Below, one piece after another: positions 32,931 to 58,700 of a stretch of DNA of 64,000 nt. The notes beneath the pieces were generated by a model, which was not told where the DNA came from, did not search any database, and saw only the letters and a list, made by a program, of their open reading frames with translations. Every line of letters starts with the position of its first letter. The first letter of the stretch is position 1. The position numbers were made by a program, and so were the translations under genes. Source of the stretch: Heliocybe sulcata (lineage: Eukaryota > Basidiomycota > Agaricomycetes > Gloeophyllales > Gloeophyllaceae); the NCBI GenBank assembly GCA_004369045.1, contig ML213510.1:818736-882735 (forward strand), given 5' to 3'.

Positions 32931-34224
32931 CTACAATTCATCCCAGTTCTGCCTATGGACCTCCTCCTCAGCTGCAGCCTGTGATTGCTGCTGTCTCCTC
33001 TCTTCCTTATAGTAAGATTTGAGACTATGAATCGCCCCAAACATTTGCGAGGACAATCTCCCTCGGCGATTATCATCGGTTAGGCCGGCATTTGAGAAAT
33101 CCCACTCACATGGTACTTGAGGAAGTTGGCCATTGCATAGCATGGCATTATTTTCGAGTCCTGAGTATATTTTAGTTATTTTTTATATTTTGTGCGTATA
33201 TAGCTACTGAAGCTGTTCTCTCTTGTGCGGTGAGTAATGTATCAAGGTTTATATTACGTATGTTACCTTCTTCGGTGCATTGCCTACCAGTGGTCATACC
33301 GTCATTATACCAAATATTTCCTGTGTTATCAATGAACCAGGATGTAAAGTGAAAGCCTCCAAAGTATATAATTCCTCTAAGGTGATACCTCTTTTGCTTA
33401 TTACAACTGAGGTATAAATACCTGCTTAGTGTTATTGCATTTGTTGGTGTGTGTAAAGCGATAATACCAGGAAGCTTCGAAATGGTTGTTACTGATTTGA
33501 CATTTTGTCTACAACACTTAACTCCCTGGTAGGCACCCTCGGGATGGAGGATTTTCTCAATCCACTTACGAGTATTCAATACTGGGGTATTTTGACCAGT
33601 TGAAAAGGATGAATTCCATTCAATTAGGAGGTTTGTAATGTCGTGAAGGATGGTGTGGCTGCATATTGGACATGTTGAAGTGATTGTACCTATTGCCTGG
33701 GTTTCTGTTAGCTCTTGATATAGTTCTACAACACTGGTCCCTACACCACGCCGTAAAGGGAATCTATTTCTATCAATTTTGTTGAGTGCGATTCTTGCAT
33801 GGTCCCTACATTTTTCCATATTGAGCTCACCTGAATGTATCAATTTAAAATCTGATAGCATGTTGATTATTGTATCATTTATGCCAATTATTTCCGACCA
33901 TCTTTCTGGATTGTCTGACCATAAATTATATAGTACCATGAGTAGAGCATCATATGCACAGCTGTAATTTGACTTCCATATGAATCCTACGGGATCTGGT
34001 CTTATTGTAATCTGCTGTACGTGATTGGGGGTATTTTTGGGTAATTCATCTGCTGCATGCTGATTGATGTTGTATTGGAGATCGCTGTTAGGACTATAAA
34101 TTTTGTATACATCTTGATCCTCTTTTGTTAATGGTCTTAGCACATCTTTTGTTCTTGTTGGTTTAACTAAAGTCCATTCAGAGTCTTCTATCACATCAAT
34201 AGGTTTCAGCGGATCAATTGCCGT
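32931..34224 (-). pseudogene. Helitron USP-like cysteine protease domain, frameshifted near its end
   Basis: Directly downstream of the helicase and in the same frame, separated only by an in-frame TAG. It has a ubiquitin-specific-protease-like layout: catalytic Cys in SNYSCAYDALLMVLYN, two CxxC pairs (CPICS; KCCRQN), and the distal His/Asp region (GGFHFTSWFID, then WYNDG). A frame change near 33,172 leads into a further piece (CEWDFSNAGLTDDNRRGRL) that ends at 32,931 in a Gln/Glu-rich tail. Cysteine protease domains of OTU/USP type are known passengers of eukaryotic Helitrons. The stop, the frameshift and the lack of its own clear ATG make it a broken part of the Helitron polyprotein. Confidence 0.7.
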
Positions 34225-37200
34225 CTATCTAATTGCAGGATGCACGGTGTCCGGGCAATAGTCCACTTTCCATTGCTGGTATGACCGGATCAGTGTGTTT
34301 CTGCGGTGGCCTTCAATGTGGGCAGGAAGAGTTCCATGATAGGTAAGATTAGATATATGGTCTAATATCTCCAATTCTCTGAACTCCTGTCTGAGAAACC
34401 CTGAAGCTCCTCCAGTGATCTGTTTTGGATCGAAACCTTGGACAATAACAGTACCATCAGCAGAAGCACTACGTGACAAGCAGGTGTAATACGACTGGTG
34501 ATTATTACAGTTGTTAAGGTCTACCACATTATTTGGTCTCGTTCGTCCTTGTGAAGCATAATCTGTCATTGCGAAATTTGGGAGTACTGGGATTTGTTGT
34601 CTGACTATTTTCTCAAGAGTATCATTAGGTAGTCGGCACTCGATTTCTATACTCTCCCTGTTGATAGGTACTACATTGATAGGTAATCCCTCAATCTGAA
34701 CTGGAGTAGGGGGATTCATAAGCTCCACAAACAGAGTATCTAAAATGGGTACACTATTTATGTCATGAGAGTGCCATGTAATAACCCTGGCCTCAGCGCC
34801 ATTGGTTATACAACATTCTGTTGCTATATTTTTTTTGATTAACACAGGCATGCCTTTTGATAGTGACAGTTTACCGGCAACATGACCAGTATCAGTGTGC
34901 GGTAGGTTCCAGAGTATCTTTTGGACTTCAGGATCAATTATCTCTGAGGCATGTACTTGTTTTGAATGTCTATTGTTTTTTCTTTTCTTGTTCAGGGTCG
35001 GATTCTTCCATTTGTCTATTGAATAGAATTCCGTCAGGTTTTGATTTGTATCTATGGCATATTGCTTAGCACCTAGTATATTAATCTTGTCTCTGTGCAT
35101 GTTACGTGCTGTTATCATGGATACGTGTCTGAATCGTGGGTCTGCTAGTTTTGGTTTACCATGTTCAAGACCTGCAATACGAGATCTAAGAAAAGCAATA
35201 TCTTCTTCTGTACATGCTTTATACCTCATGTTTTCCAGTGCAGTACGCAATTTTGCATCTTGTTCAGTTTGTGTTCACTGTCTCATGTTTTCCCGTAAAA
35301 TCACAACTACTGTGAATTGGTGCCACAAAGCTTTACCTATGGCAGTTTGTTGTGCAGTAAGAGACATGCGGGGGCCAGGCTTAGTACCTACAGATGCACT
35401 GTATAGGGGCTGGCGGTTCATGGCTGGAGGAAGCTGGGCAAAGTCACTGCAGAATATCATATTAATCCCACCAAATGGCTCATCATTATTGCCTTTACCT
35501 TTGCATAACTGAGCACAAATATGATACAAATCATAACAGCTGACCATGGATATTTCATCAATGAATATATAATCAATGGTTTCCAGCTTGGCTTGCATAT
35601 TAGCAGTGCTGCTACTGGATTTATTCATTGTATCTGACTTATCTGCAACACCTAATATTGAGTGGTATGTAGAGCCACCTACAATTGCTGCAGCAGAGCC
35701 AGTAGGAGCTAGTACTAGGAATCTATGAGACTCATTTTGCTGTTTAAAGAATTCAATTAATGCCTTTATAACCTGAGATTTCCCAGTACCAGCCATGCCA
35801 CCCAGATACATTTTTAGTTGATCTGATTGTGGCATAGAAGCGTGATTAGATATGACCCTGAAAGCTCGTTCTTGCTGTGGACGTAACGAAAATAGATTTA
35901 CAATGGCAGCTTGTAGTGTTACAATATTAGGATTATTACTGATAAAATCCTTAAGTAAGTATCTCTTGTCAACAATTTTGACTTCATCATGGTTAACGTG
36001 CTGGACAGGAACAGATACTACAGTAGGCCTACGGGTTGCTCTGTCTTTCTCACGCTTTTGGAGGATATCGTCTTTCTTATGCTGAATACTATCAGTCCAA
36101 TGCTGCTTATTTCTTAATTCAATGTATATATCCTCTGGTAGCTGAAAGTCACATTTACCTCTTAACGGTGCCAGCCAGCCAGAGCTTTTCAATACAGACT
36201 CCATTTCTTCCATTTGTCTCAACCTATTGATAGTTCTTCTTCCTACTTGTGTATACTCATTGGCATCGGGATGCACTATAAAATCTAAATCATCATACAT
36301 ATCATCAATCTGGTCAGAGTTTACTCCAATCCTCAATAGTAATTCTTTAGTATGCAGAGTGGGTAACCCAGAACTGAGTCCCGCTTTCCGTTGTTTCGAG
36401 TAGTCATCGCGGGCATCATAGCATTCATATCTGATATTAAAAAAATTCATTAACTCTTGCTGCCTAGAAGTAAACTCGTAACAGACGAATGCATCATCCC
36501 AACTCTCATCTTGATCTTTAAGGTTTCTGCCTCTTCTCCAGGGTTTAAATAATGTTAACATAGTGACACAGTAGAACTCACGATTCCCACTGTCTTTTCT
36601 GGGAATGTTTCCTCCTATAAAATTAGGAACGATTGAGAACATCTCTTTGACCATGTTAACATAATGAGTATTGTGCTGTGGATGGGGTTCTTTGAATTTA
36701 AGTCTAATATGTTCGTTTAAGGTATCATCAGCTTCTTCTATGTTGGCATCCTCTTGCTCATTCAAATTGTTTAGCTTATCATCTGGATTCAATGACAGTG
36801 ATTTATTATTTTTTAAATAGTGTTTTCTTGAAAGGCGAATCCAGTCGTAAAGATTAACATGTTCATACTGATCTGGCCTATATATATAATCCATAACCAC
36901 TGAGTACATAGTGTAGCCATCGGAGGTCTGCTTTATTAATACTTGATTCTTGGAGCCTTGTATATCATTATTAATTTTTAGATCGTGGGAATCGGTTAGT
37001 TCGCTTGGTATATCCCAGTCACTCAAGACTTCACTAACATAGGATTTCCAGTAGACAGTTTTGAATTTGTGACTGGTGTAGTGGTCAGGATTTCCCAATA
37101 AATAAGCACTAGCCATAGGGGCTCCAATTTCCATTTTAACAGATAGAGAATTAACTACACGTGTTAATAATTTTCTTGCCTTTTCCTGTTCGCTGGCATT

Positions 37201-40200
37201 TCCTCCTATCATCATAGATTGTCTGTCAAACACGTCATGTATTGTCTGAAATATAGTGTATGTTTTCAAAGGAGTTTTTGTGATATAATCTGTGACATAT
37301 GCTACAATGGCTTTCAAGGCTGTTCCCGAGAGTAGACTAGTCACATCTGAGTTCGATCTCAGGAGGTATGTTAAAGCAGGAGAAAATGTATTCATTGTAC
37401 TTTCTAGTTTTTTAAGTTGGATAGATCCATCTTCATCATCCACAATTGACTTTTCAATAATAGGACGAGGAAATCTGGCTTTGCACTGGCCATTTACAAT
37501 GCAGTGATCTCCGCATTTATGTAGGTTTGATCGGTATAACAGATCATTAACTGTATTTTTGAATTGATGCCTCCAAGAATTAGTATGTGCACAAATAGAG
37601 CAATCTATTTGCAGAGAGTGGTCGCATGGAACAGGAGGACATACCGGTAGGGTTTGCGTAGGATCTTTATATCTCGGATCACTCTCTGCATACTTGACTT
37701 CTGCTTCAACTTGGGATAATGTCTTATTGATAAATTCACCCTGATGTACGCCTTCTAAGTACTGGATCATTTTTTTTTGGAATGTAGAATCAGATCCAGT
37801 CATGCGGTCTCTGATTTCTTGGGGACTTAGAGAGTTGGTTATCCATAGAAGTAGATGTAAGTGGAGCGTTAGCCTCCCTTGTTGTTCTACCGTACCATAG
37901 TATGCTGACGATCTGCCATATAGTCCATCATGCTCAGAACCTATACCTAATACATGTTTCACAAATAATTTAACCATCATGTCAAAAAATCTTGCACCAG
38001 CAACAGGATTTGTAGCAATTAATCTAGATCTCTCATCTTTGGGTAGAATATCTAAGCTAAATGTCTTATTGGTATTAGCGTAATAAAGACATATTGGATG
38101 CTGGACATCTGCTGGAGCGAAAGTAATAAACCACGAGGGAGCACCTTTGTAACTTATCAATGACCATATATCATTTCTCATATATTTCTTACTCGTGAGA
38201 GACCCGTCCACGCCCCCGCCTACTAGGTCCAGATCATGTAACAATTGGAAACAATTTTTCTCATTGGTTGTTGATGGTTGTACCTTATCTCCTTTGGACA
38301 GCCTGGCAGCGAGATCAGTTAGGACATATTTATTTATTGATAGTAACCGGTCAGAAATATTGGCAAAAGAGCTTCTGTTTGCAGCCAGAAATCCACCTGT
38401 GGTACTGGACTTTATCTGCTCGTGATTGAAAGCAATAATAGGGAAATATTGGTCTGTTTGGAATCGTTTGTCATGGTACATCAGGAGTTGTTGCTTGTGT
38501 AATTTCTCTGAAATTTTTGAAGAGCAATTAACATTACCTAATCCACCTAATCCATAAGGGAATAGCCAAGGAAACATTTGAGGATATAATTGAGGGTTAT
38601 TGTACATCGACTCTGGTTCCTCAGCATGACCTACTGCCATAACCTTACCAGAACTGGTCAAGTGTTTCATAGCTAGTGCTTTAAGAGCTTTTATGCTTTT
38701 TGAGTATAGTTGAGTGCCCGTGACTCCATGTACCACTAGAGGGCACGGACCTGTCTCTGTACCTTCTTCATCACCATTGAAGTGCAGGCTAGTAGCCAAT
38801 GCATCGGTATCTTGGCCTTTAGGATGGTAACTTACAACCACTGGTGGACTATTATTATTATACCCTTTTAGATTCTCATATGATATGGTGAGGTCATGAT
38901 AATCAGAATGATTCAGTTTTAGCCACTCCAAAGCTCGACTCACCCTGTTATGACTGACAAGTAAAGGGGTTCGCTTAAAGTCATCATCTACTGGCTGTGC
39001 TGGTCCAGTAAAGATGAATGCTAGTACTTCATCCATTTCACTGCGTGGAGGTGGTAATGTATTGTGAATTTTTGGAGTGGGATTAGCAAACATAATAGCA
39101 TTAGCTCTCATTTTAAGACCTCCAGCAGCGACTCTCACTACACACCGGTTATGTCGCACCTTTGCTATCATAAGCTGCTCAGCTAAAGTCAGGTTTTTGA
39201 GAGCTTCTGGCACACTTCCGATCCATAGTCCACTGGCAAGAGCATTCGGAGGTATACAACCAGTTTGCAAAGAAGTACCACATTCCGGACAGACAAATGT
39301 GCAATCATCAGCAAGAACAGGTCCTTCTATAGGACCAATGGGATCAGAAACTACAAACCGCTCTTTTCTGGTGATATTAGCATTAGCTACAGTAAGTATA
39401 CTAATCACGGAGTCATACTTAGCTAGTGGTGTCATGATTTTAGTCGGATACAAAATGCCACATACTGCACAGCCTGACTCTTCTATGAGATCAGGTCGCT
39501 GATCTTGACAGAAATTATGTATTAACTTTTGGATATGGTTATGATCGGGAGGACAAGGAGGGAATTTGATATCATTAGAATTTTCTCGATAATTAATACG
39601 GTTGATGTTACCTCTGTTATTTAAAGTCCATAATCTGCTATCTGGGTTAGTCAGATTAATTTTCTGCTTGAAATACGTTGCAGTAGATTTTGGTATATAA
39701 GGAGCTAGTACAGCATAATATTCAGGACACCTCGAACATGTATGATTCCGCACTGCATCTCTCATGTACTTTATCAACCACCGAGGGCTGAGATTTATAT
39801 TATGAAGGTCAGCTATCTCTTTGAGCCAAGGCCCGGAAAGTTGTTCTGCAAGCAGGTGAATAGGAGCTTGACTAAATATAATATTTTTATTATCTCTATA
39901 CATATGTCGTGCCTCATCAAGAAGACAGTAGTCAATGAATTTAAAGTGGGTGTCAGGATTTCCGAGAAACATAGAGGATGTCGACCATTCAGGTATAATA
40001 TACGGGTATTTTATTATAGCCTCCACATGGTACGCGGCTCTAGAGACTGCACGTCTACCTCCACCTATCTCTATGTTAATGTGTTCTATAGAACGATAAG
40101 ATATAGCGGAATGGGAATGTACGGGCCTGTGGCGTCTGAATAAAAGAAAGGAATTACCAAAAATGAATATTAAACGTTTACAAGTTTGTGGAAAATATAT

Positions 40201-40608
40201 CAAAATTAAATTAAGACAAATCTGAATCAATTTAGCGTTGCATGGAAGATAGGGCATGGTCAAGAGAGTCATACGTGTAATCTTCAAGTGCATTCTGTGG
40301 CAAACAATGATAGTGGTAAATATAAGGCACCAGGTTACAAACATCTTATCTTTGACATCGTTAATCTGAAGCTCCCCAATGCCGCTGGTCCAGGAATACA
40401 TGACCGTCCTGGTCCAAGATTCAGTGACCATTTTGGTCCAAAATTCAGTGACCATTCTGGTCCAATAGTCTGTGACCGTACTGGTCCAATAGTCTGTGAC
40501 CGTACTGGTCCAATGATATATGTAATCCAATGGTAGGGTCGACAAGCCTGGTGTTTGATTGAATAGAAGACGGTAAAAGAGCTTCATGACAGAGATCTGG
40601 AGCAGCAT
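34225..40608 (-). CDS. Helitron Rep/Pif1-helicase protein, one in-frame stop
   Basis: The first ATG in the frame is at 40608; the frame itself is open from 40710. The N-terminal region has an 8-residue repeat (DYWTSTVT type) and then Cys-rich segments (CSRCPEYY; CAVCGILYP) like the zinc-binding part of Helitron proteins. The Rep domain shows the HUH motif in LTLHLHLLLWI (residue about 950 counted from 40710) and a two-tyrosine YVTDYITK motif (about 1,140). The SF1 helicase has a Walker A GMAGTGKSQV (about 1,640) and IFIDEISMVS. A TGA follows RENMRQ; the same frame then continues with helicase motifs (YASQGRTRP; YTCLSRSA) to 34,225. It would make nick-and-roll transposition if intact. Confidence 0.88.
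40387..40530. repeat. 24-bp minisatellite, five full units and a partial
   Basis: Units begin GGTCCA at 40,387, 40,411, 40,435, 40,459, 40,483 and 40,507. Units 4 and 5 are identical and unit 3 differs at several bases. Because 24 is a multiple of 3, the array keeps the Helitron frame open and encodes an 8-residue repeat (DYWTSTVT and variants). Confidence 0.9.
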
Positions 40609-40710
40609 GATAGTCAGTTGCAATCCGGAGAGCAGTAGCAAAATGGTCGGAACAATGAAGGATGCAACAAGCCGTACATCGGGGCCCAGGATAATGTTCC
40701 CACGCCGCAA

Positions 40711-41191
40711 TTTCCATTTATATCATAACTATAACGTTTATACATGTGAATACAAACAGTGGAACCCGGATGGGAAAGTGAAACACCGCTATTGGATCAA
40801 CGCCACAAATTAGAATATTTATCATAGAGAATTGACTATTTGTTTGTTTTTTCCCCTGTCATTTTTTTTCTTTTTTTTTTCCTTAATGACAAAATACTCT
40901 GTAGAAACCGACTAATGTTAACTTCCATGGGGTCGACCGTACGCCACGAAGGCTATTTATATCACAACAAAGAGCGTCACATATATATATATATTTGCGC
41001 ATGGTCATCTTTGTTAGGTAATATTGTCACAAATACTACAAAGGTCAATTATATGCCATTATGCTAAGTGCTGCCGTTACCTTAAGTTTTACGAAAAAAA
41101 TCCTATATTTTTAACTTCACAAGCCTCAGTTTATTGATCAATCCATCATCGCGACATTATTATTGCAGTCAAAAAATAACAACTTGGCGTA
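40711..41191. other. AT-rich gap upstream of the Helitron frame
   Basis: Holds T- and A-runs and a (TA)n stretch at about 40,982-40,994. It may contain the Helitron promoter and 5' end, which I could not fix. No gene seen. Confidence 0.4.
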
Positions 41192-44100
41192 TCAATCAAC
41201 TACAGGACTGGTAATCACGACGACCCACTGCAGATTCAGACTCAGAACCGGATCCGTTCCCTGTATGGGCTTGGTGGGCTTCCACCGAGTAATGGTGTAC
41301 CCTACCATGGCTGTCGACCCAGCAGGGACCTCAGTGGTAAACTCCGGTAGACCAACCTGATCCAAACGATCAATCCACTTGTCCCAGTTCAGAGCTCGGT
41401 CCACCACATTCAAACGTCCATCATAGATGGGCACTTCTCATCGCGTCAGAAGATAAAAATAGATATCAATGAAACCAACTCACCCTTGTCGTTCAGATCT
41501 AAGGTCCGGTTGGCTTGGTCCCTACCCACAGAGGAAGCAGGTTTGACGCTCTTGGAAGGGCTGAACAAAGGGGGGCGGGAACTGGGAGTAGATGGCGCGC
41601 CGACATCTAGAATAATTGATGTTAGTATAATAATCAATAAATATGATAGACACGTACTGGCAGGACCCCCGCTGCTCGTGCTAAATTGGACTGCATCACC
41701 GTCCATCCGAGCGACCACATGCTCAGTTTGATCATACACGGTACCCACCACACTCAACCATCTCTGCCACTCCAAAGTATAGAATACTCCTGACAGATAC
41801 TTAAAGGAAAACCCGCTGCGCTCCACCGGCTTATGCAAATAACATTCGGTCACTGCCACCACAGAGGCACATAAAACAGGCGTGTCTTCCTGGAGAACCG
41901 CGATTGCCGAATCCTTCCGTGAGGTGACGTGCAAGATGTCGGGGGAAATACGGGACAGGTTCAGGACGCTAAGGCCTTTCTGCTGGAAGCAGAGAGACTT
42001 CTTAATAAACCTGCATAGCATATTGAATAAAACAATAAAATATGATAATAAATTACATACTCCAAGTCCTTCTGAACGTGAGGACATATGGGGTCGCGAC
42101 TGCTGTTGGGTAAACGGTTCTTGCAGGGCGCATAGGTTTCATGACACTTCAGATGGAACTTGAGGTGACCGAACAGTACATTCCCAGTAGACCTGCCGCC
42201 AAAGTCCCTATAAGGTTTGGCATTTACCCAACTGCAATCAAATAAGTATCAGCATCGCGGAAACAATAAACAGTACGCACTACTTTAGGGCAGGTAGATC
42301 CTCATAAGTGTCGGCCATTGCTGCCTCCTCAAACTGCTTGAACAAGTTCCGATTGGGGGCAGGCCTATGTTTATCGATTAGCGTACCGAACGGGTATTCA
42401 TAGTGTAAACACTCACCCTTTGTCGACTTTAGCATTGCTTCCCTTACCCTTCTCTACATTGTCCACCGAACGTCTCCTTATTTGAATATTAACCAAATAT
42501 AATACAGTTGTGTGAAAAATACTCACAGAACTTTAGGCCGGTCATCGTCATCGCTATCTGTTTCGGCAGGCTTGGGAGGCGCACTGGACGTGTTTCCCAA
42601 AATAATCAGATATTTATCGAACATAAAATGAAATAAAAACGTACATGGGACGGGGACGATCGTCATCGTCAGGCTCTTCCTCTTCATCGCTTTCACCACC
42701 GCTCTTCTCCATAAATTCCTGCTCTCCTTCTTCCTCATCGACCTCTTCCTCCTCAGAGTTATTGCCACGGTTTCCATCATCCGCTACGCCTTCCTCACTG
42801 TCCTGGGCTTCATCGCCTTCCTGTCCATCATCATCTTCCGTGTCTAAGTCAAACAAGTCATCAGACCGGACAGGCGAAGACTGTTCCAAGCGTCTAAAGC
42901 AGAAGAGAAAAAAAAAGTAGATTAAGGATCGCGTTGAAAATATAAATGAGCAAGAAATACGCACTCGGTTTTAGGCGCGGCCTTGACAGAGGGTGGACCG
43001 CCGGCACTCTCCTTCTTACCCACCACTTTTTGACGCTTGATTACCGGCCTGTGCAGATGATCAGAATGTAATTAAATACAAAATGAAATCATGTAACGCA
43101 CTTCTGTGTCGAGGAAGGTCTAATAATTTGACTAAATTATGATAGAGTCAGCCCGATAATATATAAAACAAAATATGCGATAAAACATACCTATTGGAGG
43201 GTGACGGGAGAACTTGAACGTCGTCATCAGAGCCTGGAATCCGACGCTTATTGCCGGCAATTGTGCTATAAGAATAAGTCAGCGTTTGAGCGATGTAAGA
43301 ATTATTTAATATAACTGACATCTTCTTTTTCAAAGGTGTAACCGCCGCCTGGGCAGAGCGCTTGACATCCAGGGTCTGAGCAATTAGTTCCTTAGTGGAA
43401 GGCATATCACTTGAAGCTCCAATAAGTCTACTATCAATGACACCACATGATAAACATTCAACAAACCCAGTTTCGTCTTCGGAATCCGAGGTAATATTGA
43501 TAGCATCCTCCGCCGTCCCAGGTAATCCTTGGTCTGGATGGTCGCTAGCGGCGACACGAGATCTATTCTTGCTTTCGCTGGATAATCAAATAAGTGCAGA
43601 TAATAAAGAAGCAATTGGCCGACATACCGATTCTTGGCGGTCGAAGCCTTAGATGATTCGCCGGTCTTAGGACCATCTCCCTCCTTATTTCTCGTAGCTC
43701 TAAATCAATAATATTCAGTCGCATTGTAATTCCAAAATAATCAGGTAAAGTGCCACGAACTTTTTCTTCGGGACAATTCTCCGGTTACCGACTTTCCGAG
43801 CGGAAGTCCGGGTATTGCTAGATTGACTATATTGGAACAATCATCAGCGTGAAATAAATGGCGGCATAACATACTAAGACTCACACTGCAGCTGAAGCTG
43901 AAGTTCCTCCACCGCTGTCAGGAGCGAGCTCCGTCTCCGGTATAGCCGTCATGCTGTAATTGAATAGGAAAAAAAGATAATTAAAATAGGAAAAGAGAAG
44001 GAACAGCAAAAAGTACCTGGTTAACACGGTAAGTTCAACAGGACTGTGCATCGCGATTTAGGATATTAAATATACAGTAAAAACATATAAAAATGACATA

Positions 44101-44242
44101 CCTCCCAATACGTCTATTGGGAACTGACTTGCGTGTCGACTTTCTACAGAGGAAACTTAAGAACGTAGAAGAGTATAAATAAAAGTTGGACGCACCTGGT
44201 CGGTGTCTCCAATTCAGAGGAGGGTGTCGCCATAAAATTCAT
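41192..44242 (-). CDS. Many-exon acidic protein of unknown function within the insert
   Basis: I do not recognise the family. From the ATG at 44242 (or 44233) about 15-17 short exons separated by 45-70 bp introns can be followed: MATPSSELETPTR, then KSTRKSVPNRRIG, basic AT-hook-like pieces (ARKVGNRRIVPKKK), a segment with a CLSCGVID pair, a long Glu/Asp-rich exon near 42,650-42,890, then LFKQFEEAAMADTYEDLPAL, a Cys/His cluster (HLKFHLKCHETYAPC, later CPHVQKDLE) and a globular C-terminal half with FSFKYLSGVFYTLEWQRW. It ends TSPVVD at 41192. Basic plus acidic tracts and Cys/His residues suggest a nuclear DNA- or chromatin-binding protein. All splice sites look intact. Exon ends are approximate. 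Confidence 0.6.
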
Positions 44243-44754
44243 AGAGTACGACACTGTATTTATATTACCAACGGCGGATGCAGACGAACACCCTAAACCC
44301 TAATAATCACATTGAAGATGAGATAGAAGCGTCTAGAAGCGAGTACGAGTGTGCAGGATGCATACCCTCAGCCGTCGCTTATTTAGCGCCAGCGGTCTTA
44401 TGAAGTAATTGCAAATACAGAGTCGGTAACGCGCTCATGAATAGCACCTACAATAAATATACCTTACTGCCAGTCTCACTACACTGAGTACTTCCCGGTG
44501 CGAAAGACAACATGAGTTGCGGCGTGAATGAATCAGGGATATATTGAATAATACCTCCTAGTCAACACATAACCCCACCCCCCACCACCCAACTTGAAGA
44601 CCCGATACCCGGCAAGTAGCGACTAGCGACGGTTGAAATATAACCGCTCTTCTCAATCAGCGCCGGATTATTGTGATGCAGGACATCCAAAAATAGTGCA
44701 CTCAGCTCGAGCGGCACGATAACGGTGACTGTAGAAGCTGCCAGAATTGAACCC
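44243..44754. promoter_or_regulatory. Divergent intergenic region between two insert genes
   Basis: About 510 bp separating the minus-strand acidic gene from the plus-strand GDIVEV-family gene. It should carry both promoters. No coding frame with support. Confidence 0.35.
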
Positions 44755-46219
44755 ATGAGTTCCTACCACCCGACTCTCCAGGTAAGCGATCTCACCGACT
44801 GGCTACCTCGCAAGCACGCGCATACCCGGCTGCAAAACTTGGAATTCATATGGTATGTATTAGCCGCTGTCAGAGATAGGCCAATTTGCGGCAAGACTCG
44901 AACGAATCTAACAATATAGTGGCCCCTCACAAAGGCTCTACAACCTGAACGCCCCGACCTGCAAGAAATTCTCATGGAGGAAATAGACATCGATGGAGCC
45001 AGTACGTGCCTTTTCACTCCATATGAGCGTACAGGAAATCACAAATTACCATCCAAGGAAACACCATCGCTAAGTGGACGGAGCGGTTTGATAAACAGGA
45101 AGATACACGATGGCATATGCTCACTGCTGCAGCGGAGAAGGTCGGCCAGAATCCTGCACATAGAGATTATTCTCTCACCTTTTATCCAGCCAGACATTAT
45201 TCGCCTAGGGACTGCTCTGCCCAGCAACCCTCTGAATCCGAGAGTCAGGATCCTAACCTTTATACCAAAGGAAGACAACAGTTACGAAGAATTCAACCTA
45301 CGTGTAGTTGGAATTCTGCAAGCGAAAGACCTACCGCCTCAGATAGAGCCGATAAAGTGAGTAAATAAACAGTACTTGCTTAATCACGAAAACATGCTAA
45401 AGATTTCATCAGCTTCAGACAGGCTTACCAAAAACAATACTTAGCTCAGAGTATCACGATCTCCGGTCTATCAGCCGAAATCTTCAGCAAGGCACTGAAG
45501 GGTATAACTGTCATTCACCGCCACATGTCGCGATTCTTCAAAGATGGTGCTATGCAGGCTTGGGCACCTTCCGACTTGCAAGGACACCCCGCAATCAATA
45601 TCAAGAGTCGATACTTTAGCTCGACCAGAGATCTCGGAAATCCTTCCAGCATTCCATTCGATAAGCGCCTCGATCCCAATGGAATACTGACGAACCTGGT
45701 AGATGACAAGTGGGTGCATACCCAAGACAATGTCGTAGATTATTGCCAGGCTAAAGAAACTGAAGACGGCAGTATCAGGTACGCAAAAAAAGCACTTACT
45801 ATCAATCGCCGGATACCTAATGCGCCTCAGATATGTCAAATGCGATCCATCTATCTTCCGGATAGGCGACATAGTTGAGGTTGATATTGGATTTATCGCT
45901 ATACCTATATCCTCAAATCAAATGCGGATGGGACTGGTACTACGCTCACTTACAGTACTGGAGACTACGTACTCTGAGGTAAGCTAAGACTTCACAGACA
46001 AACATACCCAAACACTTACATAACTAGATGGCATCCGCTCGGCTCCTGGAACTCAACACCCCAACTTTCCAGAGAAAGGTTCCAACAATCAAGCGCGCCA
46101 GTCGTGGAGAAGAGGATGATATTGGGCAGACCCGGCGTCAGATTGCCAGGCTTCAATTGCAAGACGATACAATGGATGTAGGTCCAGAGGGAGGCAGGCG
46201 GGATTTTCCGGATACTTGA
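44755..46219 (+). pseudogene. Degraded member of a basidiomycete family with a GDIVEV motif
   Basis: The ATG at 44755 starts MSSYHPTLQVSDLTDWLPR, then LEFIWYVLAAVRDRP. An in-frame TAG interrupts at about 44,917, after which the same frame continues (ALQPERPDLQEILMEE) to a donor near 45,001. The next exon (TIAKWTERFDKQEDTRWHM) needs a frame change in a T-run near 45,178-45,183 to reach RVRILTFIPKEDNSYEEFN. Further exons give GITVIHRHMSRFF, VHTQDNVVDYC, then FRIGDIVEVDIGF and a short tail ending at 46219. Proteins of this layout are numerous in mushroom genomes and often lie among transposons; their function is unknown. Recognition is from memory of the family. Confidence 0.6.
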
Positions 46220-47208
46220 GGGAGAGACCGTAGAGTTTATCAGGACTACACATCTGGCATAAGTGCAGAAACAGTAACCAAGAAATTTGCAGAGCGTATA
46301 AACATGTGGTACCTTCTAAGATGCGACAAGATCCAATGAAAATTGAACCAAAAGGAAGCGCCCATTACCATCACAAAGGCTGTGCTGTGGCAGTGTTGTC
46401 ATCACTGACTTAGATGACAAGTTCGAGTATGCAACCGTACGAATATCCACTTCTACATCTGATTTAAAATAGGGACTGAACCGGATCATATAGTAACAGC
46501 CAATACTTGCTACTATCTAGCGCAGAAAGGGGAGTAATTAATACATGGTGCACTTGGAGCGTCACCTAATCCTATAATGATATAGCTAATGCCAACCAAC
46601 ACCTACTGGGCATCAAGGAAGGTACCTATGACACACTCTTAAGTTAAAAGTTATAACTTTCAGCTTGAAAGTGCGTCATAGTTGATCTAAGACAATGTCC
46701 GATCTAGATTATACCGCACCGATCCAATCTCGATCATGTTCAGTACGATTGTTAACAAGTCAGCAGTACGCATAACAGTTGATGGTTCCGGGTCTAGTAC
46801 AACTAATACAACAGCAATATAGCTCAGTGATGGCCCATCATGATTACCATATACCCTATGGCTCGTCAATGCCACAAAAAGCGCAGGTAAGAGGTTGTCA
46901 TCACCCAATGAACGATCGTGTTTCAACCGTTCACAACAGGAACCGATCACATATCCCCCCGATATGCCATCGGTATACTCACAATTAACCGGTAGAAATA
47001 ATTGGAACCATCCAGGCCATCGGCCGCGCTGCTGCACCCACACCCCGGTCCCTACATCCCATCCCTCAAAACAGTCTCGCCAACTCCTGCCAGCACTCCC
47101 AGTAACTGGCAAACGTCTATACGGTGCCCCTCCAATATCTACCACCACTATCACGCTATATCATCTGTCAGCAACCTCCGAGACATTGACTCGGACGACT
47201 AGCCCCTA
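46220..47208. other. Gap with possible upstream exons of the dioxygenase gene
   Basis: Between 46,220 and about 46,690 no gene is seen. From 46,750 to 47,200 plus-strand coding-like pieces occur (HHDYHIPYGSSMPQ; after a plausible intron at 46,887-46,940, TYPPDMPSVYSQL), ending near the start of the dioxygenase exon at 47,209. They could be its first exons, but a stop lies in frame and I could not fix the junctions. Confidence 0.35.
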
Positions 47209-49446
47209 ATGCAGGGATCAAGCAATTCCTGCCGACCGGTCAAAGTGCGATACGCTACCTCAATATTAGGAGAACGTTACTTACTGTATGAAAGCGACAA
47301 GGGCTGTGTCCATCCGCTCTGGCCGTGGGGGACAGCAATAGTAGTTCTGACGGAGGTCTCAGACGATGCGGTCAAGCAGAAGTAAGCATGCAGCGTCATC
47401 GTGCCAGATAGACTCAATAACAGCCCAATAGCCTCCGCAAATACGCTGGGCGTACTATTCCAACAGGTCTCAGAAATGCGAAAGAATTAGAAGACCGCGG
47501 TTACGTCGAACTAAAGCCAGGCTACGGTCTGTTCACCAGGATAGTAGAAAACGAGACAGACCAAGGAGACTCTACACACGCCAAAGACGACGAGATTCAA
47601 GGATGGGTAGCCGACTACGACCTCCTCGTGCAGAAAGCTATTATCCACAGCAAAACGCTCGACACACGCCTCCAGATCTTAGCTGAAGATATTCTCGGAC
47701 CCGTGAACGAACACTCCAGCTCGCCGCCGCACACCTCCACAAATCCTAAGGGAGGTATAGCTCTCGAACGCTTGCTATGGCACGTCACCGCCAGCCCGGC
47801 AAATAAGCAAGGCAGTAGATGCTACTCCATGGGATACACTATCGAACAACCACGCTCGCTCATACACCCTGCACGTACCATGAAATATCACCCGGACATT
47901 CCGATGAATGAAGATATGCGAACACGGCTAGTTCAGGTGAGTCGGCGACAGTCCAGGTGAACGTATTCTAAGCCGCATGCAGACGGTGACCGAGTATGGA
48001 GGTGCAGCCATGAAATTAGCGCCTCTACAGCGCACAGATCTGATGAGGAACATCAGTGAAATCAACCAGATACCGCCGTTGGGCCACACGGATAATCAGA
48101 ATTTTTGGACCGGTCTACAAGTCAACGTTTCGAGACCGGTCTTGCATGGCGCAAACGAACAACTGCGGGCTGATCTTGGACGCGCAGGTGATGTCCATCC
48201 CGACGTCCACAACGACATAGGTTCTTTCACGACCATGATCGTACTTACTCGCACGCCCGAAACCTATACGCCTGCCTTTTTTTTCCTGCTAGAATTCGGC
48301 GTCTTCATTCAGATGGACTATAGAACAATCATCACCTTTTCGGGCTTACGACTGCATGGTCGAGCACCTTCTACGGCACCCCCAACCGTAGATACCATCC
48401 CAGAAGACTGCTACTCTATCATCACCGTCCTTTACAACACCTCCGATGTCGCAAAGCTCACGAAGAACAGACTATCTCTGTTTCCACCGCCTATTGAAAG
48501 GAGGACAGCCGCGGAACTAGGCGTACAAGCATTACCTCCGGAAGCGTGGCAGAACGACTCGGAAGAGTTCGTCAACGACCCTACGTACCAATCAAATATG
48601 TTCACTGACGGTCATATGCTGGCCGGAGATCGACTTCCGGGTTACAACCTCAAACTCATGAGCAGGCTCCTACGCTATATAAACCGGTTCAGCCCGATCT
48701 ACATGTACAACTGGAATCCAAGCGAGCTGATAACCGACACTGAGGTCAAGATACGCAACACGGATGAAGTCGTATTCCCGACAGAAATCACCATATCCGA
48801 AGCCGAGGAAGCGCAAATCCAAAGCGAATGGAACGACCTCGTAACGAGGAACAGGATCCTCCTAGGCGGTGAGTCAGCCAGGTACGGTGACATACCGAAC
48901 CGAGGTAAGCGTCAAAAAACACTAATACCCGCCCCATAATAATGACCTTTATACAGCACAAGACAAGATAGTTTACAATCCGATCGCGACAGCGCCCGAA
49001 CGACTGGCCAATTTACAAAGCTCCCATAATAACCAGCAAGGTACGATAATAAGATTAATAAAAATCAACCACTAACAGCGCAGACAGGTAAACGAAAGAG
49101 ACTAATATGCGAGGTAGTAATACCGATGTTGAAGCGCCCGAATCGCGACCACTCAAACTCCAACGCGGCCTCCAGCAGCTCACGTGAATTACGCTCATCC
49201 AAGAAACAAGATTCTACTCACAAGACGCCTCTGACCACTCCCTCCACAAGCGGAGACAGTCGTAGCGCAACAACACAACAAGAAGTACCTATCCACACGC
49301 CAGATTCGAACGAAGACGAGAACGAGACCGACATCGCAGACACCGAGGAACTGGAATCCGATACGGCACACGCAAGCGATCATATGAGTGAAGCAGCAGC
49401 AGCAGACTGGAAGGGGAAGGGAAAGGAAACGAGGCTAAGGAAATGA
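47209..49446 (+). CDS. TET/JBP-family 2-oxoglutarate/Fe(II) dioxygenase
   Basis: TET/JBP enzymes oxidise 5-methylcytosine or thymine in DNA. Exons 47209-47381, 47432-47936, 47983-48904, 48957-49040 and 49088-49446 join in frame to 680 residues with no internal stop. The double-stranded beta-helix core follows the fungal TET/JBP layout: iron-binding HxD as VHND (48,208-48,216), FFLLEFGVFIQMDYRTIITF, and the distal iron-binding His in SGLRLHGRAP (48,355). The position after that, CYSIITVLYN, usually carries an Arg (YR..) that binds 2-oxoglutarate; here a Ser is seen, so activity is in doubt. The C-terminus is basic then Ser/Thr/acidic-rich (GKRKRLICEVV). The gene lies within transposon-rich DNA, as known for many mushroom TET/JBP copies. 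The start may lie further upstream. Confidence 0.75.
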
Positions 49447-49668
49447 TGCCGTACAGGTAAGCATATAAGAATCGGATATAAACATTGAGGCGTAATTGAA
49501 GTCCACATAACAGACGCTGAGACCGATAGCCGTTGAGCAGTCTCTCAGGCCGAAAGTGAGGTACAGCAAACCCAACGTCCGAGCTGAGGTAAATATCATA
49601 GATCATGATGCGCTCTTAACTCATGCAGCATACTAGGTCCGAAGAAGAAGGACTACAAGGCAGCTCTC

Positions 49669-50580
49669 ATGTCCATTTTCGACGAACAATACCTAGACAG
49701 CATATACAAAGACCTCAAGGAACGGCTTACGATGAAGCCAGATTCCGTCCAGACATACGCCGTCCCGAAGCCGATACAAACTGCATCGCTCTCCACCGCG
49801 CTCTTGGCATTCATGCAAACCGATTCCAACCCGACACTTCAGCGACAGTCGCCACAAGACATCATACTTATTTGGGAGCAGATTTCAAAAGGTCGAACGA
49901 ACTTGAAGAAGCTAGGTGTCACGACCAAGCTGATTCGCCACGGAGTCATGCTTGGACTTTGGAAGACCTGGGAGTTTATGGAGGTCCATTGCCGCAAAGA
50001 CTGTGAAGACGTACTTTGGGAGAACAAGACGAACGATCTCACAAAGCTTGTCAGAAAGGTATTACAACACCTCACAACCAACGCGAAGACCGCACTCCGA
50101 CTCAGTGCCAAAACCTACATCCAGAACTTCAACGGAGACGCCATAGCCACCATCGTGCCGAAGCAGATGTGACTAATAGACGACGAAGAGCACAGGGACG
50201 AATGTTATTGGGTTGTTACCGAAGAGGTTATCAATGTCCTATGCGCTTGGCTTGGCTACTCGCGTGGACCTGGAAAGCAAGGTCTTTGGCGCGATCAAGG
50301 GATATTCATTGACATCCTAATCAGACTCACGGGTAATTCGTTCCTATGCTTCCTGGATGAAGTTTGGGATGCATTCGAGCATCCCAAACAGCTAATAAAG
50401 CCGAACAAGCAAGGGAGAAGAGAGAGAGGAGATAGATGGAATGATCTCGAGACGGAAATCCGAGAAGCGGTCAGAACCAAAGGAACACGCAAGATAACCG
50501 CGAAGGTAGAACAGATAGGAAGCACCTGCACGCCGTATGTCGGAGGACTGGAGAAAATATACAAGAGGAAGATACATTAG
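49669..50580 (+). CDS. Unknown protein with one in-frame UGA in a UGA-CUA context
   Basis: One frame from the ATG at 49669 (MSIFDEQYLDSIYKDLKERL) to a TAG at 50,578 holds 303 codons, interrupted once by TGA at 50,170-50,172 followed by CTA. The short form is 167 residues, helical, with WEQISKGRTNLKKLGV and WKTWEFMEVHCRKDCED. The extension of about 135 residues (IDDEEHRDECYWVVTEEV, then LCFLDEVWDAFEHP) looks equally coding. UGA CUA is the known high-readthrough context in fungi and animals; a simple nonsense mutation is the plain alternative. Upstream exons near 49,514-49,590 and from 49,638 (PKKKDYKAAL) may extend the N-terminus. No family recognised. It follows the dioxygenase gene on the same strand. 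Confidence 0.55.
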
Positions 50581-51839
50581 ATACAACCTACTTACGGTAG
50601 CAATGTGCGCATGTACAAGACGGAACACGACAATCTGACCACTGATCCTATACGCTATACACCCAAAAAAGAATCAAGCTAAAGAAATCGCCACATAAAA
50701 GCGCTAACATTAACACACAGCAGCCACTGCGCGAGACCAAACACGATCAAAGAGATATCAACCAAACTGTCAAACAAATGACATCGACCAATCAGGGGCC
50801 ACGATATACGTTAGACACGACAGTGACACCCAGCCGCATCATCTATGCACAGTGAGCGATGACATTAACAGACACGTCAAACAGACTAAACTTACTGATT
50901 ATCAGTATTAATAATGACCAAAAACCGAACCTCAATCAATAAAAAGCAATCCCACTAACCAAAAGCCCTAGTTGCGGCGACAATCAGTACTAAAGAGCTT
51001 TGATGTCGGCATTGCTTAACTGCACCTCAAATTAAATTCGCGCGAATCCATGCTACGGCTCATATACAGGAAAAAAAGGACGAACAGAGTGCAGAAGCCC
51101 GCCATCTGGCGATCTGGACAAAGCAAGCAAGCAACCCGCCACAACATTCGACTGACCAATCAGAGATCAGGAAACCCGCTCGCCGCGGAAACGCGAGCGC
51201 CACATTGGTTCCCACAGTAAGAACCATGTTACTGATCCATCAACGATGAATAAATCCACAGGACCCGACTCAATCCTCCTAAATTCCCTGCAATATTGCT
51301 GAACGTACCTACATATGCGTAGATAATATATTTGAAATTTCAGAAAGTATCATTAACGTTTCATAGAGCCAGGTGCCGAAAACTTCAAAATGAGACTACA
51401 AACAGAATTTGTAGTCCAGACTACGGACGGAGTTCGAAAATGTCTTACTACTTTTGAAGTGAGACTACAAAAACAGGTTCGCACGACTTCTCGGCACAAT
51501 TTCCCACGGACTTCGCGGTTCGGCATCATTCCGCGCGTAAAGACGCCTCCTTCGTAAACTCAGGACTCGTAACAGACGATGCCTGAATGGCAAGAAAATC
51601 GGGCGCCATGGAAGCAAGGACCGGATAGTGTAGTTCATTGACCTGAGTACATGCTAAGATATACACGAAATAGCAAAACTGACCGGTAACAAGAGAGCGT
51701 ACCTTCCAACACGTGGAACTGACTCGAATAGCACTGTATTTTCTGGACTCCAATACTACACTCACATACTAGTATCGGGGTCGGGTCAGTCGAACGTCAA
51801 CCTCCATAATCTATCTGTATTCCAAAAATGTTGTATGTG
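50581..51839. other. Non-coding right part of the insert
   Basis: About 1.3 kb of AT-rich DNA without a supported gene. It holds one small inverted-repeat unit (51,373-51,497). A 79-codon open frame on the minus strand near 51,526-51,765 has no other support. Confidence 0.4.
51373..51497. repeat. 125-bp inverted-repeat element
   Basis: Ends GTGCCGAAAACTT and, inverted, GTGCCGAGAAGTC match at 10 of 13 positions. Inside, two copies of TGAGACTACAAA flank an AATTTGTAGTC inverted match. It looks like a miniature inverted-repeat element; no clear target duplication was seen. Confidence 0.4.
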
Positions 51840-52552: not shown

Positions 52553-53728
52553 CTAGCCCCCTTCCTTCAACCCAAAGATGACCGGCAGTCTCTTCCAGAC
52601 TGTTTCCAGCGCCTTCGTCTCCGATGCCTGAAACACGTCCTTGCATGGCTGACAGAGCTGGTTGGTGTGATTGCGATACTGCTTCCAAAGCGGCTGCCTA
52701 GTAAAAATATCGCAGCAGCTCAAGAGCCCACGGTCCTTCTGATCAGATAGATACGAGGCAAGAGCCGCTCGGCAAAGATGCTTCGCACGGCAGGTAGGGG
52801 TGGGCGAGACGCTCAGCAAGAAGCTATCCATGAGCTCATGCTTGTACTGGATCAGATCTTCTCGGCCAACTAGAATGATCCCTTTATCGTGCTCGCTCTT
52901 CAGTTCGAATTCGGATGTCTCATCTCCCATGCCGACCGTTATGCCATAGACAATATCCTCTATTGGGAGCTCAGCAGCACAATAGTATGCAGCGGGAAGG
53001 ATCGCGTCGAGGGGGACTTCATTTGCCATGGCGAGGGCCTCGAACATGTGGGTAGTGGAATCCCCGAGCAAGGTCTTGTCTCTACGCCGGAAGTCGCTGA
53101 GTGTCGTGGGATATATCAAGGACAGATGAGCGGCAATCTCGTCCTTCAGGTGCTTAATTCTGTATCTCTTGCTCATGCGGAGCAAAGCAGCCAGCCTATC
53201 AAACGGCGTATATGCACCCTTGATGAAGTACCTTCCCGTCACGGACGAGTCAGACTCCGCAGTCAAAATAGCTCGAAACACGTACTGTCTTTTATATATC
53301 GCATTCAGGAGGCAACGAATATCATCGGAATCCACATCCTCATCAAGGTGGACCAGAGGAGCACCTTCGAAAGATTCCTGAGCGCTACCGGGTGGAAAGT
53401 CGAGCATCGCCTTGAAGACCTCAGAATGCATCAGAAGCAGACTTTTGTGAACCCTGAAGACGTTTCCCGCTGCCTCGAGCACGATACTTCCATCCGGAAA
53501 CCATAGATCTTCCTCTTCAGCCATAGACTTGGAGTACGCCGACGAGGCAGAGGAATCCACCTCCCCCAGGGTATCTTCATCATCCTTGATTTCCGGAGAC
53601 TCAGCATCCATTTCCGCCGCATGTTCTTTTTGCTCTTGTTTTACATTATCTTCGACATCCTTATTCTGCTGCTCGGACGATGCCTGTTCTGTCCCGTCAT
53701 CTTGTCTTCGGTGCTTAGGAGGTTGCAT
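52553..53728 (-). CDS. BTB/POZ domain protein
   Basis: Exons 53728-53286 and 53231-52553 join to 373 residues. The 54-bp intervening sequence has GT and AG ends and is a multiple of three with no stop, so retention would add 18 residues. The N-terminal third is Gln/Glu/Lys-rich and disordered. The BTB core follows (SIVLEAAGNVFRVHKSLLL, FKAMLDFPPGS, then YFIKGAYTPFDRLAALL) and a helical C-terminal region with CRAKHLCRAAL and CQPCKDVF. This is the usual layout of the expanded mushroom BTB family, with likely roles in Cul3-linked ubiquitination or transcription. It parallels the gene at 30,601-31,794 in sequence and orientation, so the two were probably neighbours before the insert came between. 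Confidence 0.88.
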   Translation of the reverse strand: MQPPKHRRQDDGTEQASSEQQNKDVEDNVKQEQKEHAAEMDAESPEIKDDEDTLGEVDSSASSAYSKSMAEEEDLWFPDGSIVLEAAGNVFRVHKSLLLMHSEVFKAMLDFPPGSAQESFEGAPLVHLDEDVDSDDIRCLLNAIYKRQYVFRAILTAESDSSVTGRYFIKGAYTPFDRLAALLRMSKRYRIKHLKDEIAAHLSLIYPTTLSDFRRRDKTLLGDSTTHMFEALAMANEVPLDAILPAAYYCAAELPIEDIVYGITVGMGDETSEFELKSEHDKGIILVGREDLIQYKHELMDSFLLSVSPTPTCRAKHLCRAALASYLSDQKDRGLLSCCDIFTRQPLWKQYRNHTNQLCQPCKDVFQASETKALETVWKRLPVIFGLKEGG

Positions 53729-53820
53729 GACACAATCAGTAGTGGAGGGCAGAAACTACCTGGCCAGGACAATGATTTTTTTCTTTTTGGGAGGAGGGGG
53801 GGGTGAGCTGACAAAAGTTT

Positions 53821-55713: not shown

Positions 55714-58700
55714 ATGCCCAAGAGTCTTCCCACTAGCTCTCGGATCACTAAGTCCAGACCAGATGTGAACGCAAAAAAGTACCGATGCTACGAAGGCTGT
55801 ACAAGGTGCAACGGCGAGTTGGTCACCCGGGGAACCAAAGAGCGTCACGAGCGGGAGCGACGTAAGGCAAACTCTCTGGCGGTAGCTCGAGGACGAGGGA
55901 GAGGATTGTTGGGATCTGTTATTTCTCGAGCAAAGAGTCTCGGTAGGGGAGCCTCCTTGAAGCTGAAGTCAAAGACCGGGCCCTCCGCTTTCCCTCAACT
56001 CGACAATCACAACTTCTCTGTTACGCAAGTCGATACACCCATGGAGGATGCAGCTGGTCCCACCCAAGCTGTGAGTGCATCGAACATCGACCCCGCTGAG
56101 GTGCCATATGCGGTAAGTCTTCAGTGCTGCGCATATATACCCATTCAAATTTATTGACCAGCTCCGGTTGACAGGACATGATGGACGTATGTACGGATGA
56201 CAATACTGCACGAACTCCGGAGCCCGAGCCTCAGGATAACAAGTCTGAAATCGTACAAGATGATCCTATGCGCTCTGTCACTGCTTCACCCCATGACAGT
56301 CACCAGTTTGATGACCCACCTTCCCCGGCCCCTTCTCACCACTCCATCTCACCCGCACCTCGCCCTCCCTCCCCTTGCCGCTCTATTACCCCTGCACCTC
56401 GCCGCTCCACACGGCGCTCAGCTAAGCGAGTTATAAAAGAAGTTATGACATTACGAGAGAAGCAGGAGCAGCTCGAGCAGGAGCAGCTTGAGCAGGAGCA
56501 ATCACAGCTCAATGATGATCTGCAGCTGGGTCTCTATGACGATCCAGATGATGGAGATGAGCTACAACTCGAGCTTGCAGCTGCGCTCGAGAGTGAAGAG
56601 CGTCCGGTGTCTCCTGCCAGTGACCACTCTCCACTCTCTGCTGCTCCGGATTCCATTTCTCGGGACGATATTAGATCTCTTCCACCACGACCATCACCTG
56701 CTGATGCCTATGCAAACTCTCACAGCCACTGGTTTGTGCGGCTGGTCCTCTTGCTCGTTATACACCTTCAAACTGTGCATCATGTCACGTTTCATGCATG
56801 CACAATCATTCTCTTCACTCTCCGCTCCATCTTCATTTGTATGGGCGCTCTCTATGACGATGATCCTATGCCAACAACTTATCAGAAAGTTATACGTGAC
56901 ATGGGTCTTGAAGATCGATTCGGTATCCATCCAGCATGCCCAGACTGCCACTGCCTCTTCAGCCCCGACCTCCCTGCCAACGCCAAGTGTCCTGGCTGTA
57001 ACACAGCGCTTTTTATGTCCAGACACACTGGTATTCTTCGACGCCTCTGGAATAAGGTTACACGTAATGCTAATCGCAAGCCGCCTCCCGCCAAAGCAGT
57101 TCCTCTTGCGACGTTATCTAGCCTGCTGGCGGACTTCCTCGAGGATGAGGAGATGGAGACAGCCTGTGACCAGTGGCTCGATCATGTCCACGAGCCTGGC
57201 AGATACACGAATAGACTCGATGGTGAGGTTGCGCGTACGGTCAAGGATAAGAATGGCAATCTCTTCTTCTCTCAGCCATCTCACACCGAAGAGAATGAGC
57301 TCCATATCCCAGTCGACTTTAGCGCCGATTGGTAAGCTGTCGCTGCATATATGCATTGTTCTCAAAGAGCTGATCTTGTCGAAGGTTCAATCAAAATAGC
57401 TCCAACTTTGCCGGGAGCCATTCCTCCGGTATGATGTCCTCTACTGTTGCGAGTTTACCTCCAGAGCTACGGTGAGATCCTCCATTTTCCGCAAGATCCC
57501 TAACTGAATATATGCACCGTATCAGCTACCAGACTAGGAACTTACTTGTTCCTGTTGCCCTTCCCGGTCCCACGGAGCCTACGGCAGAACAAATCCAGAG
57601 TTATCTGAAATTTCTTGTCGATGATCTTGAGCTGCTATACGGAGATGGTGTACGTATCAAGACCGCCAAACATCCTGACGGTGAGTATATGCATTCCTTT
57701 CATGATCTGAGCCTTGTACTTAATCTGCTTAGGTCGACTCGTTCACGTTTTCCTCATGGCGATCGTCTGCGACCATCCGGCCATGTGCAAGATATGCGGC
57801 TTCGCTGATCATGCTCACCGCAAGGCACCATGCACAAAATGTCATGTGCCTCACGATGAGCTATTCTCGGAGAAGTCTCTCCGAAATGGTGAGTAAAATC
57901 CCATTTCTTTAATACTGTTTCTGATGTACCTGCAGAGTATACTCCCAGGGATGGTGAAGACCACAAGGCTCGATGCTGGCGATGGAAGCAGCTATCCACG
58001 CAAGAAGAACGAGATGGATGGTTCCAGCATTTCAGTGCCCGTTGGACCGAGTTTGCAAGACTTCCATACTTCGACCTCGTACGTTTCACGCTCATCGACC
58101 CGATGCATAACATTCTCCTGGGTCTTGCAAAGAACCAGTGGTACGCTCGTTGGATTAAAACAAAGGCATTGCGGGCTCCCACCGGCAAGTCTGAGCACGA
58201 GATCGGCATGCTACATGAGTTCCTGGAGACGGTAAGTCATTCTGAGCTCGATTAATATCAATCTGACATGGCGGTAGGTGGAATCTCCCCTTTGGGCTGG
58301 ACGCCTGCCACTGTGGATGGGCGAGCCCGCTGGTGGGTCGCTTACAGCTGATGAATACAAGTTTTCTACGACGAGTGTTCTCCCAATCATTGTGAGCCCT
58401 ATATTCTGTTGTATCTCATCCACTACCAACTACTATAATACATTAGATCCCTATCATATGGGATGTATACCTCGAGTCAGCTGTTGCAGCTGTTGGTGCA
58501 GCGAGGGAACGCTACGAAGAAGAGATGGAGGACTATAAGCAAAATATCAAACTCTGGGAAGCACGTGAAGCTCGTCGGAAGAAGAAAGTGCAGGAGAGAG
58601 GCAAGACGACTCCCAAAACGTCCAGCAAAAAGGATCCCAAGCCTACTCCACCAGCAGAGCCCGAGCAGCGTCTGCATGAAGAGGAGCCCGATATGTTCCT

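Follow-up and report, generated by a model that had tools for sequence, protein, structure and literature searches.

The window examined here, a 64,000-nucleotide stretch (G000:C8:818736-882735) of the 31.6-Mb assembly of Heliocybe sulcata (Gloeophyllales, Agaricomycetes), holds a large Helitron with a TET-like gene inside it, that is, a gene resembling the TET/JBP-type DNA dioxygenases. The database protein over this locus is OE88DRAFT_1644538. The Helitron also contains a Rep/helicase open reading frame (ORF) and a companion gene of unknown function. The main features are as follows; C9, C48 and similar handles denote copies elsewhere in the genome.

33115-51572, minus strand: Helitron of 18,458 bp, 5' end at 51572 and 3' end at 33115, oriented by the Rep/helicase and bounded by shared ends
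51555-51572, minus strand: 5' terminal inverted repeat, TTACGAGTCCTGAGTTTA, from counts of genome matches
33155-33168, minus strand: inner inverted-repeat copy, lying 40 bp in from the 3' end, from copy comparison
33115-33154, minus strand: 3' terminal stretch ending in CAAGT, with the stem GCCAT/ATGGC, from copy comparison
35275-40722, minus strand: Rep/helicase ORF, 1,815 amino acids from stop to stop, from Pfam
45036-46216 (approximate, in pieces), plus strand: companion gene of unknown function, conserved with C9/C48
47209-47381, plus strand: TET-like gene, exon 1, from a splice trial; start uncertain, the public model beginning further upstream
47432-47936, plus strand: exon 2, from the splice trial and family alignment
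47983-48904, plus strand: exon 3 with the oxygenase core, from the splice trial, genome matches and selection against C9
48957-49040, plus strand: exon 4, from the splice trial, with counterparts in family proteins P0004 and P0011
49088-49446, plus strand: linker exon, ending at the in-frame TGA 49444-49446
49639-50577, plus strand: C-terminal domain, cut by the in-frame TGA 50170-50172

The TET-like gene is real, but it is longer than 680 residues. A piece covering exon 3 with slight flanks (47941-48936) has 11 genome matches besides itself (E from 3.4e-154 to 7.1e-5), and is therefore not a chance ORF; in the C9 paralogue, introns fall at places matching those of the window gene. An earlier sequence-only reading had relied on five exons closing in frame at 680 residues. 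Splicing to that length is indeed obtained, but the closure is weak evidence, because eight splice-site combinations that were tried give closed frames (676-683 amino acids). Comparison between copies shows that the family's gene does not end with the TGA at 49444-49446; C9 has a sense codon there, and a shared intron donor follows three residues on. After this first TGA the frame resumes at 49639-50169, meets the second TGA at 50170-50172 and is then open to 50577. The public model (891 amino acids) splices past the first TGA and terminates at the second, and several longer family members extend into the counterpart of 49639-50577.

The TET-like family comprises 11 proteins found so far, including the window's own, all from Gloeophyllales and 595-1,221 amino acids long. 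Their TET/JBP-type identity, already suggested from the letters, is upheld by structure prediction: for a close paralogue, the top structural neighbours are CMD1, CcTet, NgTET1 and TET2. Foldseek places CMD1 first (3.1e-5), the VIA ranking places NgTET1 first, tied with CMD1 and TET2, and the predicted double-stranded beta-helix fold is closest to the TET enzymes. On this model, the family very probably has a TET-type fold. A C-terminal domain, helical and of no known family, is also conserved among its members. The profile search, which had been proposed as a check together with structure prediction, gives no such support and weighs against the assignment. The window core reaches 11.7 bits against Pfam Tet_JBP (PF12851), for which 34.9 are required; isolated cores give sub-cut-off matches in 3 of 8 cases (best E 0.0087); whole family proteins give no match in 9 of 9; and the family has no accepted Pfam match. 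On the same side of the balance stand the low confidence of the paralogue model (mean predicted local distance difference test score, pLDDT, of 55, falling below 50 at residues 291-307, which hold the HxD motif, and at 347-349) and the low Foldseek template modelling scores in the TET rows (TM-scores of 0.13-0.20 by query).

The active site was aligned across the 11 proteins in the numbering of P0002, an intact H. sulcata paralogue, which is identical in the 680-residue model; H-5 and H+5 are counted from His298, H+2 and H+3 from the distal His351. The positions concerned are the following.

48181-48183, plus strand: Arg293 (H-5), invariant in 11/11
48196-48204, plus strand: HPD, the HxD iron motif (His298, Asp300), invariant in 11/11
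48211-48213, plus strand: Asn303, the H+5 base-contact position, Asp in the other 10
48355-48363, plus strand: distal His351 and Arg353 (H+2), both invariant in 11/11
48409-48417, plus strand: Cys369-Tyr370-Ser371, the expected site of the 2-oxoglutarate Arg, from the alignment

All 11 members keep the iron triad HxD...H, and Arg293, His298, Asp300, Arg349, His351, Arg353, Ser371 and Tyr377 are invariant. The distal His was correctly recognized in LRLHG, which occurs in the 680-residue product. The HxD had been misplaced at VHND; the true motif is HPD, and VHND holds the H+5 position. Ser in place of the 2-oxoglutarate Arg in CYSIITVLYN is present as reported, but it is not peculiar to this copy. 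None of the 11 members has such an Arg on the final core strand, by alignment and by spacing in two registers; position 369 holds Cys, Val, Ile, Ala or Tyr, position 371 holds Ser, and between H+3 and Tyr377 there is no Lys or Arg in nine members and one each in P0004 and in P0006, the latter an intact protein of Neolentinus lepideus. Since the Arg is missing in 11/11, its loss is a trait of the family, not decay of the window copy.

According to the accessible parts of the published reports, which also underlie what is said below of these enzymes, the far carboxylate of 2-oxoglutarate is bound by Arg1896 in TET2, Arg289 in NgTET1 and Arg385 in CcTet. The CcTet R385A mutant is dead, so inactivity is conceivable in a family that lacks the residue. 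The alignment does yield a candidate substitute, the Arg at H+2 of the distal His, present in 11/11. By spacing, H+2 corresponds to CcTet Val378, which touches a co-substrate analogue, and to CMD1 Thr399, an essential residue in contact with vitamin C; the family Arg at H-5 is spaced like CcTet Arg321, itself a co-substrate contact. A point against the H+2 spacing argument is that the CcTet authors pair CMD1 Thr399 with CcTet Thr323, not Val378. Spacing and conservation make Arg353 a tentative candidate for the new anchor of 2-oxoglutarate, to which we give somewhat less than an even chance. At position 303 (H+5), 10 of the 11 members have Asp and only the window copy has Asn. This position matches by spacing TET2 Asn1387, NgTET1 Asp234 and CMD1 Asp350, residues that hold N4 of 5-methylcytosine. 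The D350N change removes all or nearly all activity of CMD1; TET2 carries Asn naturally.

As a side observation, two fragments of AG-type TET genes occur elsewhere in the genome, L030 (G000:C37:39237-39428) and L032 (C5:598326-598517), reading GHRDRGD or GHWDRGD ... THFN. At H+9, the place of the essential Arg385 in CcTet, they have Trp and Cys. One more weak match (L031) is not readable in the frame shown.

As judged from codon comparison with C9, exon 3 has evolved under purifying selection: over 307 codons the proportions of nonsynonymous and synonymous differences (pN and pS) are 0.182 and 0.739. In the C-terminal stretch, pN/pS is 0.162/0.805 before the second TGA and 0.134/0.742 after it. 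The window copy itself is inferred to be decaying because of its two in-frame TGA codons and the change of the base-contact Asp to Asn. These comparisons suggest a gene that was under selection for a long time and, in this copy, broke only recently; the copy may give a shortened product, and it is likely truncated or non-functional. Two observations count against long selection. Synonymous sites between the window and C9 are near saturation (dS saturated), and the recent pairs indicate weaker selection, with ratios of nonsynonymous to synonymous rates (dN/dS) of 0.44 from 27 changes for C9/C48 and 0.54 from 19 changes for C5:326k/C3. The earlier suggestion of a divergent, altered-activity or inactive version kept by its element can accordingly be divided. 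The TGA codons and the Asn do mark this copy, and the missing Arg does not; being kept by the element fits the family, and is doubtful for the window copy.

The limits of the element were obtained by comparing copies. Both C9/C48 (95.6-96.4% identity) and C5:326k/C3 (96-97.6%) cease to agree exactly after TAAACTCAGGACTCGTAA, and the same end lies in the window at 51572. With up to two mismatches, this end motif has 59 + 59 genome matches, 60 of them exact; the reversed pattern has 0 + 2. At the other end, agreement among 10 copies continues for 39-41 bp beyond the inner repeat to ACTTG and then ceases; ACTTG (plus strand) is present in 10/10 and the 3' stem in 9/10. Because the copies share agreement up to both ends, the element is 33115-51572, an interval that coincides with a block of lower guanine-cytosine content in the window. 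The terminal inverted repeat is asymmetric in the 10 copies, the outer repeat standing at the very end (51572) and the inner one 39-41 bp from the opposite end. No target-site duplication of 2-8 bases was seen in the 10 copies with both flanks. Right flanks begin with C or T in 16/16, and a TTTT insertion preference was not seen, the left flank ending in TTTT in 1 of 10 (C13). Folding of the two window ends is not better than that of shuffled sequences (z 0.63 and 0.33), the left stretch starting at 33152, inside the 3' stem. The Rep/helicase ORF contains Helitron_like_N (1.2e-33), PIF1 (1.6e-21) and DUF6570 (6e-39). The placement of an inverted repeat within the 3' end agrees with Helitron2 as described in PMC5148889, and the element is classed as Helitron2-like. 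The link to transposons in the earlier phrase "transposon-rich insert" is thus borne out; an insert of many elements is not, the block being a single bounded Helitron. Short non-autonomous copies of about 0.53 kb have the same two ends as the window element (L036 901-1434, and others on C4, C13, C21, C29, C31, C33 and C38).

Nine loci in the genome carry the TET-like gene, and at eight of them an exact Helitron end in the correct orientation lies within 3.0 kb; at the ninth, C17, no end within one mismatch occurs in the stretch examined. The Rep/helicase stands in the same inverted order at five of the nine (C8, C9, C5:162k, C5:708k and C17). For the other four, some of which adjoin contig ends or masked stretches, no match was present among 17 candidates. 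A 124-residue piece of the companion gene matches the genome at seven places, each of them upstream of a TET-like copy. At C3 there is a matching fragment from another companion exon, and at C5:326k masked sequence begins at the companion position. The Rep/helicase also occurs without a nearby TET-like match, at C23, C11 (626k and 746k) and C6 (102k), and as a 32% relative on C1. Taken relative to the window, identities of the Rep/helicase, companion piece and TET core are 77.6, 61 and 38.9% at C5:708k, 70.1, 50 and 52.4% at C17, and 68.5, 47 and 56.5% at C5:150k. Such differing distances, with Rep/helicase and companion closer than the TET core (window 33115-51572 against G000:C5:708884-728232), hint that the TET-like gene has been exchanged between elements.

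Some neighbouring features should also be recorded. Inside the Helitron, further ORFs of unknown kind lie between the Rep/helicase and the companion (41446-43704, minus strand), and Cys-rich ORFs separate the companion from the TET-like gene in the C48 copy (L033 4449-5890, minus strand); the corresponding gap in the window is only about 1 kb. Just beyond the Helitron is a BTB/POZ protein (E 4.9e-9; 52553-53755, minus strand). ORFs at 56172-58255 (plus strand) resemble a Tnp2-type transposase; for two pieces of this interval that were searched, Pfam returned no accepted match.

Taken together, we give a little better than an even chance to the whole reading, in which a family of TET/JBP-fold Fe(II) oxygenases, met so far in Gloeophyllales alone, is carried as cargo of large Helitrons and has the function outlined here. 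The enzyme made by the transposon would flip out methylated cytosine and oxidize or otherwise modify it; this would counter silencing of the element, as proposed for other TET-bearing transposons in the accessible text of Kojima 2025 (PMC12730594); and the invariant Arg at distal His+2 would now hold the far carboxylate of the co-substrate. That the TET-like gene is Helitron cargo is very probable in our estimate, and activity of the family on DNA is reasonably probable. The most specific version, an anti-silencing DNA modifier with a rebuilt co-substrate site (the H+2 Arg replacing the usual Arg or holding another co-substrate), a companion and a C-terminal helical domain, is possible, with odds distinctly below even.

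It would be very surprising if the TET-like gene belonged to an ordinary host family that merely lies near transposons. Core identities of 36-95% between loci do fit an old gene family better than identical cargo spread in one burst. However, oriented ends at eight of nine loci compare with about 0.03 expected (an estimate from the 60 exact motifs in 31.6 Mb), and the near-identical pairs stop agreeing exactly at the Helitron end.

Two other explanations accept the cargo and differ on the chemistry; we consider each of them unlikely. The family might do without 2-oxoglutarate, using another co-substrate such as ascorbate for a different DNA modification, in the manner of CMD1, which works with no basic residue holding the far carboxylate and cannot use 2-oxoglutarate. 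The absence of a conserved basic residue from H+3 to Tyr377 and the first rank of CMD1 in Foldseek speak for such an enzyme, but by VIA NgTET1 comes first, tied with CMD1 and TET2, no counterpart of CMD1 Trp358 was found at the same spacing, and the invariant H+2 Arg offers an alternative anchor for 2-oxoglutarate. Alternatively, catalysis may be lost altogether, and the protein, with its TET fold, may bind DNA to shield or mark the element. The Arg without which CcTet is dead is indeed gone in 11/11, and the conserved C-terminal domain of unknown fold would suit such a role; a dead enzyme, however, would have no need of His298, Asp300 and His351, which are unchanged in every member. If instead the relocated Arg of the oxygenase reading is true, evolution rewired a TET active site; transposon-borne TET-type enzymes would reach the Helitrons of Gloeophyllales, and a new companion gene would be tied to their function. 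The element would moreover lend itself to counting and dating, its ends being clear and its short copies numerous.

TET/JBP and KDZ elements were reportedly described by Iyer et al. in 2014. In the accessible text of Kojima 2025 (PMC12730594), TET genes of the types PU, AG and PE are found on 11 transposon lineages, including Helitron1 and Helitron2, and the element described here likewise has a TET/JBP-type gene as Helitron cargo; the main text contains no mention of Gloeophyll-, Heliocybe or Neolentinus. The family differs from the PE type, which has HxE, in having HxD in 11/11, and from the AG type (CcTet Asp337) in having Thr, Ser or Ile at H+11 in 11/11; its lack of the 2-oxoglutarate Arg is a further difference from the TET types of that paper. 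It was not found in the literature searched, which left out subscription papers and supplements. TET-bearing Helitrons as such are already known.

Among characterized enzymes, CMD1 of Chlamydomonas shares the TET fold and the Asp at H+5 seen in 10 of the 11 members, but it keeps an Arg that points away, Trp358 fills the space, and its H+2 residue is Thr399 instead of Arg. CcTet of Coprinopsis cinerea, also a mushroom TET, has Arg321 at H-5 like the family's Arg293; it differs in its essential Arg385, in Gly331 at H+5 and in Val378 at H+2. The Helitron2-type elements of Fusarium oxysporum, as far as the accessible text of PMC5148889 describes them, are smaller (5-11 kb, compared with 18.5 kb here), have other terminal letters and in some cases form hairpins at both ends, whereas for the present element a stem was seen at the 3' end and their insertion preference was not seen. 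With these elements it nevertheless shares the Rep/helicase, the asymmetric inverted repeat and the placement of the 3' copy inside the end.
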